Below, piece by piece: positions 11,651-26,784 of a DNA stretch of 64,000 bases (positions are counted from its first letter, which is position 1; every line of letters begins with the position of its first letter). Under the pieces are notes generated by a model, which saw nothing but the letters and a program-made list of their open reading frames with translations, was not told the origin of the DNA and did not search any database. Location: positions 186,001 to 250,000 of the forward strand of contig NZ_JARULC010000003.1 in assembly GCF_029688625.1 (NCBI RefSeq), in the 5' to 3' direction. The DNA comes from Qipengyuania marincola. Its GTDB lineage: Bacteria; Pseudomonadota; Alphaproteobacteria; Sphingomonadales; Sphingomonadaceae. Made by a program: the position numbers and the translations under genes.

Positions 11651-12403
<753 letters not shown>

Positions 12404-12754
12404 AGTGATATTCCTTTCCGGTTATGCCTCTGGAAAGCTGGAACCCGTGTGCGGTCATGTCCCGCGTCGGGCACCGGTATGTGCGCCTTCCATGTGGATT
12501 TGCCTGCCTGGGAAACTGCCGGAAACGGCCGAATCCGATGCGGACCGCGCGCCTTTAGCCGCTTGAGAGGGGGAAATCCACCCTCCATTCGCCGCAAAAA
12601 TACGGACTCCGACCGCAGATAGCGCTTGACAGGCTAGAACAAAGAGAGAACATTGCCCTTATCGCCGGAACTCCAGGCGGCTGATGAAGGTTTTCCACTA
12701 GATTTCCCCAGACTGTCAACAGGCAAGTCGACAGCTGGGTGAGGAGGTTGTGAG
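12404..12754. other. 351-bp intergenic region between divergent rpsB and a small membrane-protein gene
   Basis: Holds the rpsB leader and promoter (minus strand, not resolvable by eye) and, on the plus side, a TTGACA box with a LexA-type operator (12626-12654), described separately. No conserved coding frame is evident. A short inverted GAGGGGGAAATCC/ACCCTC pattern near 12566-12590 was seen but has no T tract. Confidence 0.6.
12626..12654 (+). promoter_or_regulatory. Promoter with alphaproteobacterial LexA (SOS) box
   Basis: A perfect -35 TTGACA (12626-12631) is followed 17 bp later by AACATT (12649-12654), a weak -10. Inside the spacer is GAAC-AAAGAGA-GAAC (12637-12651), which is the reverse complement of GTTC-N7-GTTC, the LexA operator of alphaproteobacteria. 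LexA bound here would block RNA polymerase. It is 103 bp before the start of the small gene at 12755. Confidence 0.7.
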
Positions 12755-12997
12755 ATGTTCGCTCTGTTCCTGATTGCCTTGACTGTCGTTGCTGCGATCG
12801 CCGCGATGGGCGTGCTCGCCGATAGCGGACTGCGTTTGTGGTCCGCTTTCGGTCAGCTCCGTGGGGAACTGCGCAGGACGTCGATCGTGTCCGACCTGCC
12901 TGTCCTGCGACCCTCCGTCGCGAACGCCGGCTACAGCGCCTTTGGCCGGACCGGCCCCTCCCCTTCCCCAATCAAGCGGTTTTCGCGCGCCGCCTGA
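12755..12997 (+). CDS. Small single-span membrane protein under a LexA box, candidate SOS-induced division inhibitor
   Basis: 80 residues. Residues 1-22 form one hydrophobic helix (MFALFLIALTVVAAIAAMGV), followed by a Trp-containing amphipathic stretch (LRLWSAFGQLRGELRR, about 26-41) and a Ser/Pro-rich polar tail. A strong Shine-Dalgarno (GAGGAGG, 7 bp spacing) supports the ATG at 12755. The 3' end overlaps the convergent pssA end by 26 bp. I recognise no named family. The LexA operator upstream and the small single-helix architecture recall SidA/DidA of Caulobacter, which block the divisome; homology by sequence is not claimed. Function is inference. Confidence 0.7.
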   Translation: MFALFLIALTVVAAIAAMGVLADSGLRLWSAFGQLRGELRRTSIVSDLPVLRPSVANAGYSAFGRTGPSPSPIKRFSRAA

Positions 12998-13808
12998 CCC
13001 GCGCGTACTTGATCAACGTAAAGGGCAGCAGCGCCAGATACCCGATCCCAATTGCGCTCAGGGTCCACCACGGCTCGACCAGCAGGGCGGCGAACAGCAG
13101 CCCGACAAAGGCCAGCACCCACAAACGAATCCCGCGCCGCGGGCGCAACGATGTCCAGCTTGGCGTGGCCATGCTCGAAATCATCAACAGCGCAGTGGCG
13201 AGCAACCAGGGCGCCACGAATAGCGGTTCGCGGAAAACGTCGAGACCGGTCGCCGACCACGCGAAGAACGGCATGAAGGCGAGGCCCGCACCCATCGGCG
13301 CGGGAACGCCGGTCAGGAAGCCCAGGGACTTGTGCGGCTGATCCTCGGTATCGATCTGGGCGTTGAACCGGGCAAGGCGCAGTGCGCAGCAGATCGCAAG
13401 CGCCAACGCGGCGAACCAGCCCCAGCGCGGTTCGCTCTGCAGCGACCAGAGATACAGAATGATCGCCGGCGCCGTCCCGAAACTCAGCGAATCAGCCAGG
13501 CTGTCGAGCTCGGCTCCAAAGCGGGATTGGGCCTTCAGCAAGCGTGCAATGCGCCCGTCCATGCCGTCGAGGATCCCGGCGATGATGATTGCCACCGCGG
13601 CGGCGGCCCATTGCTCGGAAATCGCGAACCGAATACCCGTCAGGCCTGAGCAAAGGGCTGCCGCCGTAATCGCGTTTGGCGCCATCGTGCGCAAGGTGAG
13701 GCCGCGGGAGCGCCCCAGGACCGGGCGCTCGTCCTCGGCCGCCTTGGGGCCCAGCCGCGCCCGTTCTTCTTCTTCAGCGGCTTTCTCGTTGCGCGAAACC
13801 AGGCTCAT
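12972..13808 (-). CDS. pssA: CDP-diacylglycerol--serine O-phosphatidyltransferase
   Basis: 278 residues, multi-span. The CDP-alcohol phosphatidyltransferase motif DG-x2-AR-x8-G-x3-D-x3-D is complete (DGRIARLLKAQ through FGAELDSLAD, about 83-106). It makes phosphatidylserine from CDP-DAG and serine, feeding Psd encoded immediately upstream with a 4-bp overlap (ATGA), so the pair works as one phosphatidylethanolamine module. The N-terminal 35 residues are charged and cytoplasmic. Confidence 0.93.
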   Translation of the reverse strand: MSLVSRNEKAAEEEERARLGPKAAEDERPVLGRSRGLTLRTMAPNAITAAALCSGLTGIRFAISEQWAAAAVAIIIAGILDGMDGRIARLLKAQSRFGAELDSLADSLSFGTAPAIILYLWSLQSEPRWGWFAALALAICCALRLARFNAQIDTEDQPHKSLGFLTGVPAPMGAGLAFMPFFAWSATGLDVFREPLFVAPWLLATALLMISSMATPSWTSLRPRRGIRLWVLAFVGLLFAALLVEPWWTLSAIGIGYLALLPFTLIKYARVRRRAKTA

Positions 13809-24348: not shown

Positions 24349-26784
24349 TCAACCGCCCGCCTTATGGAAGGCGTTCTTGGTCTTCAAACTCGGCTTTTCG
24401 GTCCAGGGTTCCTCGGGCCAGCGATGCTTGGGATAGCGCCCCTTCATGTCCTTGCGCACATCTGCCCAAGTGCCGCGCCAAAAGCCGGGCAGGTCGCGCG
24501 TCGCCTGGATCGGGCGACCCGCTGGGCTGGTGAATTTGAGGAGCAGCGGAGTGCGGCCGATCATCGGGTGACTATCGAGGCCGAACACTGCCTGCACTCG
24601 CACCTCGACGCTTGGCGCGTCGTCGCCAATGTAGTCGATAGCGTGCGTCGTGCCGGCAGGCGAGGTGAACGCGCGCGGCGCCTCGCTATCGAGCCGTTGC
24701 CGCTCGTTCCACTCGAGCAAGCCAAGAAGCGCATCGACCAAGCGCGCTTTCGGCAGGTCGAGATCGCGTCGGCCCTCGAGTAGCGGGACAAGCCAGAGAT
24801 CGGCAGTTTCGCGCAGGCTATCCTCTGCAAAACTGCCGAAACCCAGATAGCTCGCGCGCGCCCCCAGATCGGTTGGAATCAGTTTTGCCGGGTTTTCCAG
24901 TGCTTTATCCACAAGCATGTCCACAATAGCCTGCGCGTCCGGTTCAGGGTCCGTGCCGCGAGCGAGCGTGATCGCACCCAGCCTCCGCTCGACCAGCGCC
25001 TCGACCCGCTCGCCCTTCCAGCGCAGTACCTTGCGTCGCTCGATCCGATGATCGAGCCAGCGCTCGAGATCGGCTTCCTCCAGCTTTAGTGCAGCGGTGA
25101 TGCGCGCGCCCTTCGCCTGCCCCTGCGCGTCGCCGATGACGAGAAATTCCGCGCCCGCCAGCGAGGACGCGGGATCGAGCATGAACCCGCGCCCACCGGC
25201 GGCAATCCATTGCTCGCCCGACCCATCGCGTCTCCGGGCGATGAAGTCCGGGCGTCCGGCCGCGAGAAGGATAGCGAGCGGGACTTCGCGAGACCTCGTC
25301 TCACCGACCAGTTCGCTCGCGCGTTTCGCCCATCGGCCTGCGAGCTTGCGGCTCGCCTCCGCACGCACGCCGCGATCGCCATCCCACCGCGAGAGTCGCG
25401 CTTCAAGATCCTCGCCGCGACCGCCCAGCCCGCGTTCCTGCAACAGCAGGGCCAAGCGCGCCGCCGTTCGCGCGTCGCCCTGCTCCGCGCCGAACAAGAC
25501 CATCGCTGCCGATGCCGGATCGAGCGGCAGCGCAGCGAGCTTGTCTCCGAAAGCCGTGACCCGCGTTTCCGCATCGAGCGCGCCGAGCGCTTGCAAGGTC
25601 GTTCGGGCGGCTGCCACGGAGGGCTCGGGCGGCGGGTCCAGCCATTGCAGGCTGGTCGGATCGCTCGTCCCCCATTTCGCAAGTCCGAGCACCAGTGGAG
25701 CAAGGTCGGACGTTGCCATTTCGGGCGGGTCGAACCGTGGCCTGCCGCCATGCCCGCCCTCTTCCCACAGGCGATAGGCGACGCCCGGACCCTGCCGCGC
25801 GGCACGCCCTGCCCGCTGCGCCGCGGCGGCCTGGCTGGCGCGGTGGGTGACGAGATGGGTCGTCCCGGCGGCTCTATCGAATTCCGCCCGGCGCGATAGT
25901 CCGGCGTCGACCACCACGGAGACCCCGTCCAGCGTGAGCGAGGTCTCGGCAATGGCAGTCGCGAGCACGATGCGGCGTCGGCCCTCGGGATCGCGGCGAA
26001 TGGCGGCGCGTTGCTCGGCAGGCTGCACCTGCCCATGCAGCGGCAGCACGAGCGCTTCGGGAATCCGGGCGGCAAGACGTTCGCGAGTCCGCTCGATCTC
26101 GCCCACTCCCGGCAGGAAAGCGAGGATATCGCCGTCTTCCTCGCGCCAGGCGGTGGCTATCGCGGCCGTCATCGCATCCTCGATCCGGTCCTGCGGCGAC
26201 GAACCGAGCCACCGAATATCGAGCGGGTAGGCGCGCCCTTCGCTCTCGATTACGGACGTTTCGGGGCCAAGCAACTGGGCGAACCGCGCACCATCGATTG
26301 TCGCCGACATGACCAGAATGCGCAGATCCTCGCGCAGTACCGAGCGGGTCTCCAGCGCCAGTGCGAGCCCGAGATCGCTGTCGAGATGCCGTTCGTGCGC
26401 CTCGTCGAACAGGATTGCGGAGACGCCACGAAGGTCGGCATCGTCGAGGATCATGTTGACGAAGATCGCTTCGGTAACGACCAGGACGCGCGTCCGCGCC
26501 GAGCGCTTGCTGTCGAGGCGGGTGAGATAGCCGATCGTCTCGCCTGGGCTCTCTCCCAGCATGCGAGCCATCTGCTCTGCAGCGGCGCGGGCTGCGACCC
26601 GGCGCGGTGAAGTGAGGATGACCGTGCCTGTGCACCAGGCCTCATGGATCAAGGCCGGGGCGACAGCCGTTGTCTTGCCCGCTCCCGGCGGCGCGACCAG
26701 CACTGCGCCCGTATCCGATCGCAAGGCTGCGACGAGATCGGGCAGAACAGACGTAATCGGCAGGTCGGGCACGCCGGCGCCCAT
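24349..26784 (-). CDS. hrpB: ATP-dependent helicase HrpB (DEAH-box)
   Basis: 811 residues from ATG 26784; a TTG four codons upstream (26796) would overlap the ispB-like stop as TTGA and is an alternative. Helicase motifs in order: APPGAGKTT (I), TSPRRVAARAAA (Ia), LFDEAHERHLDSD (II), SATID (III), and QRAGRAARQGPGVAYRLW (VI). The long C-terminal HrpB-specific domain ends with the WPEEPW segment typical of the family. It is a putative RNA helicase whose cellular substrate is not known. Confidence 0.93.
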   Translation of the reverse strand: MGAGVPDLPITSVLPDLVAALRSDTGAVLVAPPGAGKTTAVAPALIHEAWCTGTVILTSPRRVAARAAAEQMARMLGESPGETIGYLTRLDSKRSARTRVLVVTEAIFVNMILDDADLRGVSAILFDEAHERHLDSDLGLALALETRSVLREDLRILVMSATIDGARFAQLLGPETSVIESEGRAYPLDIRWLGSSPQDRIEDAMTAAIATAWREEDGDILAFLPGVGEIERTRERLAARIPEALVLPLHGQVQPAEQRAAIRRDPEGRRRIVLATAIAETSLTLDGVSVVVDAGLSRRAEFDRAAGTTHLVTHRASQAAAAQRAGRAARQGPGVAYRLWEEGGHGGRPRFDPPEMATSDLAPLVLGLAKWGTSDPTSLQWLDPPPEPSVAAARTTLQALGALDAETRVTAFGDKLAALPLDPASAAMVLFGAEQGDARTAARLALLLQERGLGGRGEDLEARLSRWDGDRGVRAEASRKLAGRWAKRASELVGETRSREVPLAILLAAGRPDFIARRRDGSGEQWIAAGGRGFMLDPASSLAGAEFLVIGDAQGQAKGARITAALKLEEADLERWLDHRIERRKVLRWKGERVEALVERRLGAITLARGTDPEPDAQAIVDMLVDKALENPAKLIPTDLGARASYLGFGSFAEDSLRETADLWLVPLLEGRRDLDLPKARLVDALLGLLEWNERQRLDSEAPRAFTSPAGTTHAIDYIGDDAPSVEVRVQAVFGLDSHPMIGRTPLLLKFTSPAGRPIQATRDLPGFWRGTWADVRKDMKGRYPKHRWPEEPWTEKPSLKTKNAFHKAGG

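Follow-up and report, generated by a model that had tools for sequence, protein, structure and literature searches.

The window analysed here, 64,000 nucleotides of the Qipengyuania marincola genome (G000:C3:186001-250000), contains a short region around positions 12626 to 12997 in which only one gene lies between the divergent rpsB gene and a convergent gene that we take to be pssA on the basis of its sequence and neighbourhood. The single gene is predicted to encode a small membrane protein (P0001) and is preceded by a promoter with a LexA-type operator, by a set of DnaA-box-like 9-mers, and by a ribosome-binding site (Table 1). The TTGACA element, the GAAC-N7-GAAC motif, the -10-like box, the Shine-Dalgarno sequence, and the 80-residue protein had all been correctly placed in a preliminary description of this DNA, which did not mention the DnaA-box-like array, the C-terminal Ala-Ala, or the conserved position between rpsB and pssA.

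Table 1. Features of the rpsB-pssA region in window coordinates
Feature	Position	Strand	Basis
rpsB (ribosomal protein S2), divergent; synteny anchor	11651..12403	-	Match to Ribosomal_S2 at this position
-35 element TTGACA of the SOS promoter	12626..12631	+	Sequence; TTGAC before the LexA box in 94/94 orthologous loci
LexA operator GAAC-N7-GAAC, GAACAAAGAGAGAAC, inside the promoter spacer	12637..12651	+	Sequence; conserved in 94/94
-10-like AACATT; 17-bp spacer from the -35 element; overlaps the second operator half-site	12649..12654	+	Sequence
Three DnaA-box-like 9-mers in 11-bp steps: TTTTCCACT (12691-12699), ATTTCCCCA (12702-12710), CTGTCAACA (12713-12721)	12691..12721	+	Sequence; family statistics and logo
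Possible weak fourth unit CAAGTCGAC, in the same register as the DnaA-box-like 9-mers	12724..12732	+	Sequence of the window only; without support in the family logo
Shine-Dalgarno GAGGAGG, 7 nt 5' of the ATG	12741..12747	+	Sequence
P0001, predicted 80-aa single-span membrane protein; ATG at 12755, stop at 12995-12997	12755..12997	+	ORF; orthologues in 94 genomes
Predicted transmembrane segment, residues ~2-22	12758..12820	+	Hydropathy; AlphaFold2 helix 2-45
Juxtamembrane conserved positions D23, R27, A31, L35	12821..12859	+	Alignment of 88 members
C-terminal Ala-Ala, candidate cytosolic degron	12989..12994	+	92/94 end in AA
pssA, convergent; 3' end overlaps the small gene by 26 bp	12972..13808	-	Sequence, neighbourhood

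The LexA operator of alphaproteobacteria is GTTC-N7-GTTC, which reads GAAC-N7-GAAC on the other strand. Exact matches to the latter numbered 3 in the window (1.83 expected) and 75 in the 2.99-Mb genome, compared with 48 for the reversed pattern; taken alone, the operator box is weak evidence. The box at this locus was judged to be real because it is conserved across orthologous loci, and not from its own frequency. The preliminary description had proposed looking for the box upstream of orthologues and had named its absence there as a refutation; the search did not refute the proposal, since all 94 orthologous loci have GAAC-N7-GAAC no more than 260 bp from the ATG, whereas seven control patterns occurred in 0, 0, 0, 1, 0, 2, and 2 of the same 94 stretches. 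The geometry of the promoter was also conserved: TTGAC is located 3 to 6 bp before the box in all 94 loci, and exactly 5 bp before it in 85, and the distance from the box to the start codon is 55 to 134 bp (median, 116). There were 38 distinct boxes among these loci, with an A+T-rich core (76% AT). In the 85 promoters that were aligned, the second half-site is always followed by A and then in most cases by T (50 promoters) or another A (28 promoters). The conservation of the operator and of the preceding TTGAC in all 94 loci strongly supports LexA (SOS) control, as had been suggested, and the bacteria very probably switch this gene on when their DNA is damaged.

Orthologues were collected from the genomes of one search family (f1), which we infer to be GTDB Sphingomonadaceae. 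When 249 family genomes were queried with the single protein, 15 of them gave a total of 16 rows, with the box in front of 12 rows and absent from 4 (L011, L013, L015, and L016). A profile was built from the 12 box-bearing rows and three named relatives (the gene is present in an uncultured Erythrobacter, Qipengyuania proteolytica, and Q. xiapuensis), the four boxless rows being left out, and it gave 114 match rows in 109 of 397 family genomes. Four weak rows with E values of 0.0052 to 0.0083 (G358:C17, G300:C35, G207:C12, and G336:C1) were left out, and 94 of the 110 rows examined were located at the rpsB locus, followed by pssA or psd, one in each of 94 genomes. The other 16 were elsewhere, none of them with a box within 260 bp. 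Because the 12 seeds had been picked after the box was seen, and because L025 is identical to seed L019, only 81 of the 94 loci are independent of the choice of seeds; the box was present in all 81.

The locus was also entered through rpsB only in 30 of the 288 family genomes that gave no hit, taken by low handle number. In 20 of them, rpsB is next to pssA or psd, and a small hydrophobic ORF, picked by eye as were all ORFs of these distant members, follows the box. The box is exact in 18 of these genomes, and in the remaining 2 (L140 and L151), a box with one mismatch was seen by eye before the ORF. Among the 10 genomes lacking this gene adjacency, one (L154) has TTGAC, the box, and the ORF, and nine have no box, including L152, for which only 263 bp of upstream sequence was available. 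Of eight further family loci, the seven with the adjacency all carried the box and the one without it did not. No box lies within 700 bp of rpsB at any of 16 loci sampled from the order's other families (taken from 42 matching genomes outside f1). Among 28 class-level loci (taken from 70), there were one G+C-rich match near rpsB in the same orientation (L204) and one on the opposite strand 1.1 kb away (L200), both of which look like chance; no convincing operator was thus seen upstream of rpsB in these 44 loci. Thirteen profile matches outside f1 (385 class-level genomes) were likewise treated as chance, all having E values of 4e-4 or weaker and none an upstream box. So far as sampled, the unit of small gene and box appears to belong to one family.

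The proteins encoded at the 94 loci are 70 to 99 residues long, an ATG start being assigned in all, so that the length of 80 residues pointed out in the preliminary description applies to the window protein and not to the family. Over codons 1 to 48, pN/pS was 0.09 to 0.49 in 18 of 22 related pairs; of the other four pairs, one was identical, one had no amino acid change, and two had values near 0.8. This shows that the small ORF is under purifying selection. All 94 proteins have one hydrophobic segment (best 19-residue mean hydropathy, at least 1.98), and AlphaFold2, run with 88 sequences, predicted one helix spanning residues 2 to 45 (block pLDDT of 93 to 98 over residues 1 to 40) and a low-confidence tail after it (mean, 79.9; pTM, 0.46). 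The proposed single-span membrane protein is therefore strongly supported. The positive-inside rule links flanking charge to membrane topology. The charge before the segment is 0 in 88 members and -1 in 6, and the net charge over the 20 residues after it is positive in 85 of 94 and 0 in 9; because of this rule and this charge pattern, the topology is predicted to be N-out/C-in. Conservation is highest after the membrane segment, with D23 in 76, R27 in 80, A31 in 73, and L35 in 75 of 88 aligned members. The tryptophan in the helix, described earlier as characteristic, is not a family trait, W being present at that column in 16 of 88 members.

Neither Pfam nor NCBIfam gave a match to P0001. In the 88 members, no Pfam match was found at E values up to 0.01, and hence no LysM domain, and the only NCBIfam matches were to seven unrelated models, none of them hit by more than one member; membership in a known protein family was rejected on these grounds. 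A profile search of the PDB gave one match only (E value, 0.25). A phage or plasmid origin was also rejected, since the window protein had no tblastn match in phages or plasmids and the 88 members had no PHROGs match.

The leader between promoter and gene often contains words resembling the DnaA box, whose consensus is TTWTNCACA. The perfect box TTATCCACA is present in 19 of 94 leaders (0.04 expected from shuffling) and TTWTNCACA in 36 (0.18 expected), and the words are strongly oriented, with 70 forward and 4 reverse occurrences of TCCACA. A relaxed matrix found 163 forward and 20 reverse sites compared with 19.4 expected; at least one such site occurs in 84 loci and at least two in 61. The step between neighbouring sites is 11 bp in 54 of 79 cases, and a pair of sites at this step aligns into a logo in 77 of 94 leaders, with a weaker third unit corresponding to CTGTCAACA in the window. 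For comparison, 29 rpsB-upstream stretches outside the 94 gave 31 sites in 11,463 bp, three of these stretches (L140, L151, and L154) carrying the gene. Genome-wide, TTWTNCACA occurs 28 times compared with 34 for the reversed pattern. The array looks like the signature of a second regulator. It is not essential to the unit, because the copies in the window are themselves degenerate and relaxed sites are missing from 12 of 25 distant leaders, as they are from 10 of the 94. Proximity to oriC was rejected as the reason for the boxes: with the parS pattern as the position marker, the gene was ~0.21 to 0.48 of the chromosome away from parS in 16 genomes (three lengths rounded and circularity assumed). 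These were the genomes, out of 18 searched, that had parS and the gene on one contig; the two are on different contigs in the genome of the window, and G283 has no exact parS. No Rfam RNA matched the locus or leader at E values up to 1.

Two minor observations concern such words. A second cluster of DnaA-box-like words lies at window positions 24893 to 24925 on the forward strand (TTTTCCAG, TTATCCACA at 24905 to 24913, and TGTCCACA, ~12 bp apart). Five upstream regions (L053, L057, L074, L091, and L106) have extra GAACAAA-type half-sites near the start, and their scores for the DnaA-like pair are low; they perhaps represent a rewired operator.

The C termini of the family share a second sequence character. 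Ala-Ala is found at the end of 92 of 94 proteins (AAA in 59, VAA in 16, RAA in 7, LAA in 3, and others), the exceptions being L051 (AVA) and L074 (LAS), and positions -1 and -2 hardly vary, in contrast to the highly variable positions -6 to -12. Among the distant members, a count by eye gave 22 of 28 ending in AA and 6 of 28 not. The ssrA tail is a signal read by ClpXP, and the tag of this genome's own tmRNA (ssrA) is ANDNEALALAA. This tag ends in LALAA, and the tails of the small proteins resemble the ClpXP-read signal. However, the last codons of the gene are antisense to the 3' end of pssA in 87 of 94 loci, and in most of these the Ala-Ala tail mirrors, on the opposite strand, the (I/V)(K/R)(R/Q)Q motif of pssA. 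The Ala-Ala evidence is confounded, since this motif itself would give AA-stop on the other strand. Seven loci are free of overlap, and six of them end in AA. Five (L073, L075, L100, L112, and L118, all of one genus, g7) have psd as the next gene, with no pssA found adjoining, and serve as a natural experiment on the antisense constraint; all of them end in RAAA, with synonymous differences in the Ala codons. L108, with zero overlap, ends in ALAA with other codons and another stop, and L074 ends in LAS. On these sequences, we lean slightly towards the view that the Ala-Ala tail acts as a degradation signal.

Based on sequence and on analogy, the locus may represent an SOS gene repressed by LexA, with a product that would be a checkpoint protein that spans the inner membrane once, is short-lived, and pauses division; we regard this reading as evenly balanced. 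LexA bound between the -35 and -10 elements would block the promoter. DNA damage would activate RecA and lead to cleavage of LexA and transcription of the gene, steps that the conservation of the promoter supports. The product is predicted to insert N-out/C-in, and its helix and Asp/Arg juxtamembrane segment would, by analogy, most likely bind late divisome membrane proteins, for example FtsW, FtsI, or FtsN, so that division pauses. The return of LexA would close the operator again, and after repair, a cytosolic AAA+ protease (ClpXP or FtsH) could clear the protein by means of its Ala-Ala tail. In many members, DnaA bound to the tandem array, which starts in the leader ~45 to 80 bp before the ATG, might damp or tune the output. 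A doubly gated checkpoint, with release of the promoter by LexA cleavage, a DnaA filament on the 11-bp boxes, and termination through the ssrA-like tail, is a more tentative proposal that we find possible but doubtful. If it were true, the arrest after damage would be set by the SOS signal and the replication initiator together.

The division-inhibitor role fits the regulation, size, and topology of the protein, and several systems offer a comparison. The Caulobacter sidA gene presumably lies near dnaE and rpsB. According to the papers cited here, SidA of Caulobacter crescentus is an SOS-induced small inner-membrane division inhibitor of 29 residues that interacts with FtsW (PMC4211646) and is constitutive in a lexA deletion (PMC12700426). 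The sphingomonad protein resembles it, by description only, as an alphaproteobacterial, LexA-controlled, small and (by prediction) inner-membrane protein, but the family is longer (70 to 99 residues) and has a long tail. DidA of the same species has 71 residues and one predicted transmembrane helix, is induced by damage, and acts on division (PMC4211646). It is thus similar in helix number and size class, but its induction is described there as SOS independent and driven by DriD, in contrast to the LexA operator found in 94 of 94 sphingomonad loci; the preliminary description was therefore wrong in citing DidA as LexA regulated. Staphylococcal SosA is SOS induced, has an N-terminal transmembrane segment, and occupies the same chromosomal place at 25 to 60% identity; it is most conserved just after the membrane segment and somewhat at the extreme C terminus, which is a proposed proteolysis signal (PMC6851548). 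The sphingomonad family shares, by description, the SOS control, N-terminal membrane segment, fixed chromosomal place, and conservation after the membrane segment. However, the SosA tail is extracellular, with CtpA as the proposed protease (PMC6851548), whereas the sphingomonad tail is predicted to be cytosolic and ends in Ala-Ala. YneA of Bacillus subtilis, an SOS-induced single-span inhibitor that is rapidly degraded and whose transmembrane segment interacts with FtsW (PMC13396833), is similar in SOS control and (by prediction) in its single span; YneA has an extracellular LysM domain, whereas this feature of YneA and ChiZ is absent from the 88 sphingomonad members at the Pfam threshold given above. 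SOS-induced small membrane checkpoint proteins are a functional class and not one homologous family. Escherichia coli uvrB and recN, which are under joint LexA and DnaA control (PMC8203912), provide a precedent for both regulators on SOS genes, although they are repair genes, whereas here the product is predicted to be a membrane protein and the array lies within the leader, 3' of the LexA promoter.

The lack of any sequence link to a known division inhibitor, SidA being likened by description, was counted against the checkpoint reading, and other roles were weighed. The protein could be a membrane regulator of another SOS-linked process, such as replication initiation, envelope stress, or phospholipid synthesis through the pssA overlap. 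The antisense overlap in 87 of 94 loci and the DnaA-like array agree with such a role, but the five psd-type loci without overlap still keep the gene, the box, and the tail, which makes interference with pssA unlikely as the main role; we consider this alternative unlikely overall. Lower still we place an SOS-induced membrane-active peptide of the TisB/DinQ type, which would lower the membrane potential and slow growth, producing dormancy with no divisome target. The small size, the one hydrophobic helix, and the LexA operator would suit it, and DinQ is described as a toxic single-transmembrane SOS peptide (PMC3567139). However, this type is at odds with a length of 70 to 99 residues, with the conserved D and R next to the membrane segment, and with the long tail. 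The locus also matched no RNA in Rfam, which might nevertheless not list such an antisense RNA.

The DNA itself could also be the main element, as a site that titrates or reactivates DnaA within the terminus half of the chromosome, with the small protein being secondary. The tandem boxes at 11-bp spacing and the distance of the gene from parS in the 16 genomes are in line with this, but array sites are absent from 10 of 94 and 12 of 25 members that keep the LexA box and the ORF, and the ORF is under purifying selection; this explanation is very improbable. A chance LexA-like box before a spurious ORF was rejected as practically negligible: the exact box is only slightly above expectation in the window, but its conservation in all 94 loci with a fixed promoter geometry, the low counts of the control patterns, and the coding constraint all speak against chance. 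In our assessment, these proteins form a new family of small membrane proteins under SOS control, and by analogy with SidA, YneA, and SosA, they probably act as division-checkpoint inhibitors.

Sphingomonads are widespread, yet no SOS division inhibitor of this group was found in the literature among the matches listed, the subscription literature being mostly uncovered; also among the matches listed, no paper was seen to bring DnaA boxes together with LexA at the gene of a division inhibitor. Having an SOS membrane protein at a fixed chromosomal position offers a direct genetic entry to the arrest of sphingomonad division upon DNA damage. Should the DnaA-like array prove functional, one short leader would couple the replication initiator to a division checkpoint, and should the Ala-Ala tail prove to be a degron, the checkpoint would be self-terminating.

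The LexA motif also precedes other genes of the same genome. Twenty stretches around A+T-rich boxes were read and 17 adjoining ORFs were scanned. Boxes precede the following genes at the distances given: recA (93 bp), lexA (38 bp, counted to its ATG), radA (31 bp), the UvrD helicase gene uvrD (25 bp), a ribonucleotide reductase gene (67 bp), and, at 17 bp each, a radical-SAM repair-type gene and a weak ImuA match of 27.5 bits, which is below the cut-off. The boxes at an RmuC match (201.8 bits, below the cut-off of the model), a PA0069-type radical-SAM gene, and pdeM are weaker cases because there the box abuts the predicted start. Some of the boxes may have no function, since the others adjoin genes for an integrase, a glyoxalase-like protein, and a DUF3667 protein or ORFs without a match. 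Two of the stretches contain further genes of interest: (i) in L220 (G000:C1:528046-531046), the ORF at 1566 to 2261 on the forward strand resembles a second LexA/S24-like regulator (weak matches, below cut-offs) and starts 65 bp after its own GTTCCCTATACGTTC box, making an autoregulated SOS repressor possible; and (ii) in L218 (G000:C1:222911-225911), the ORF at 304 to 1446 on the reverse strand encodes a phage-type integrase whose start is ~69 bp from an A+T-rich LexA-like box, and it is possibly part of an SOS-responsive mobile element.
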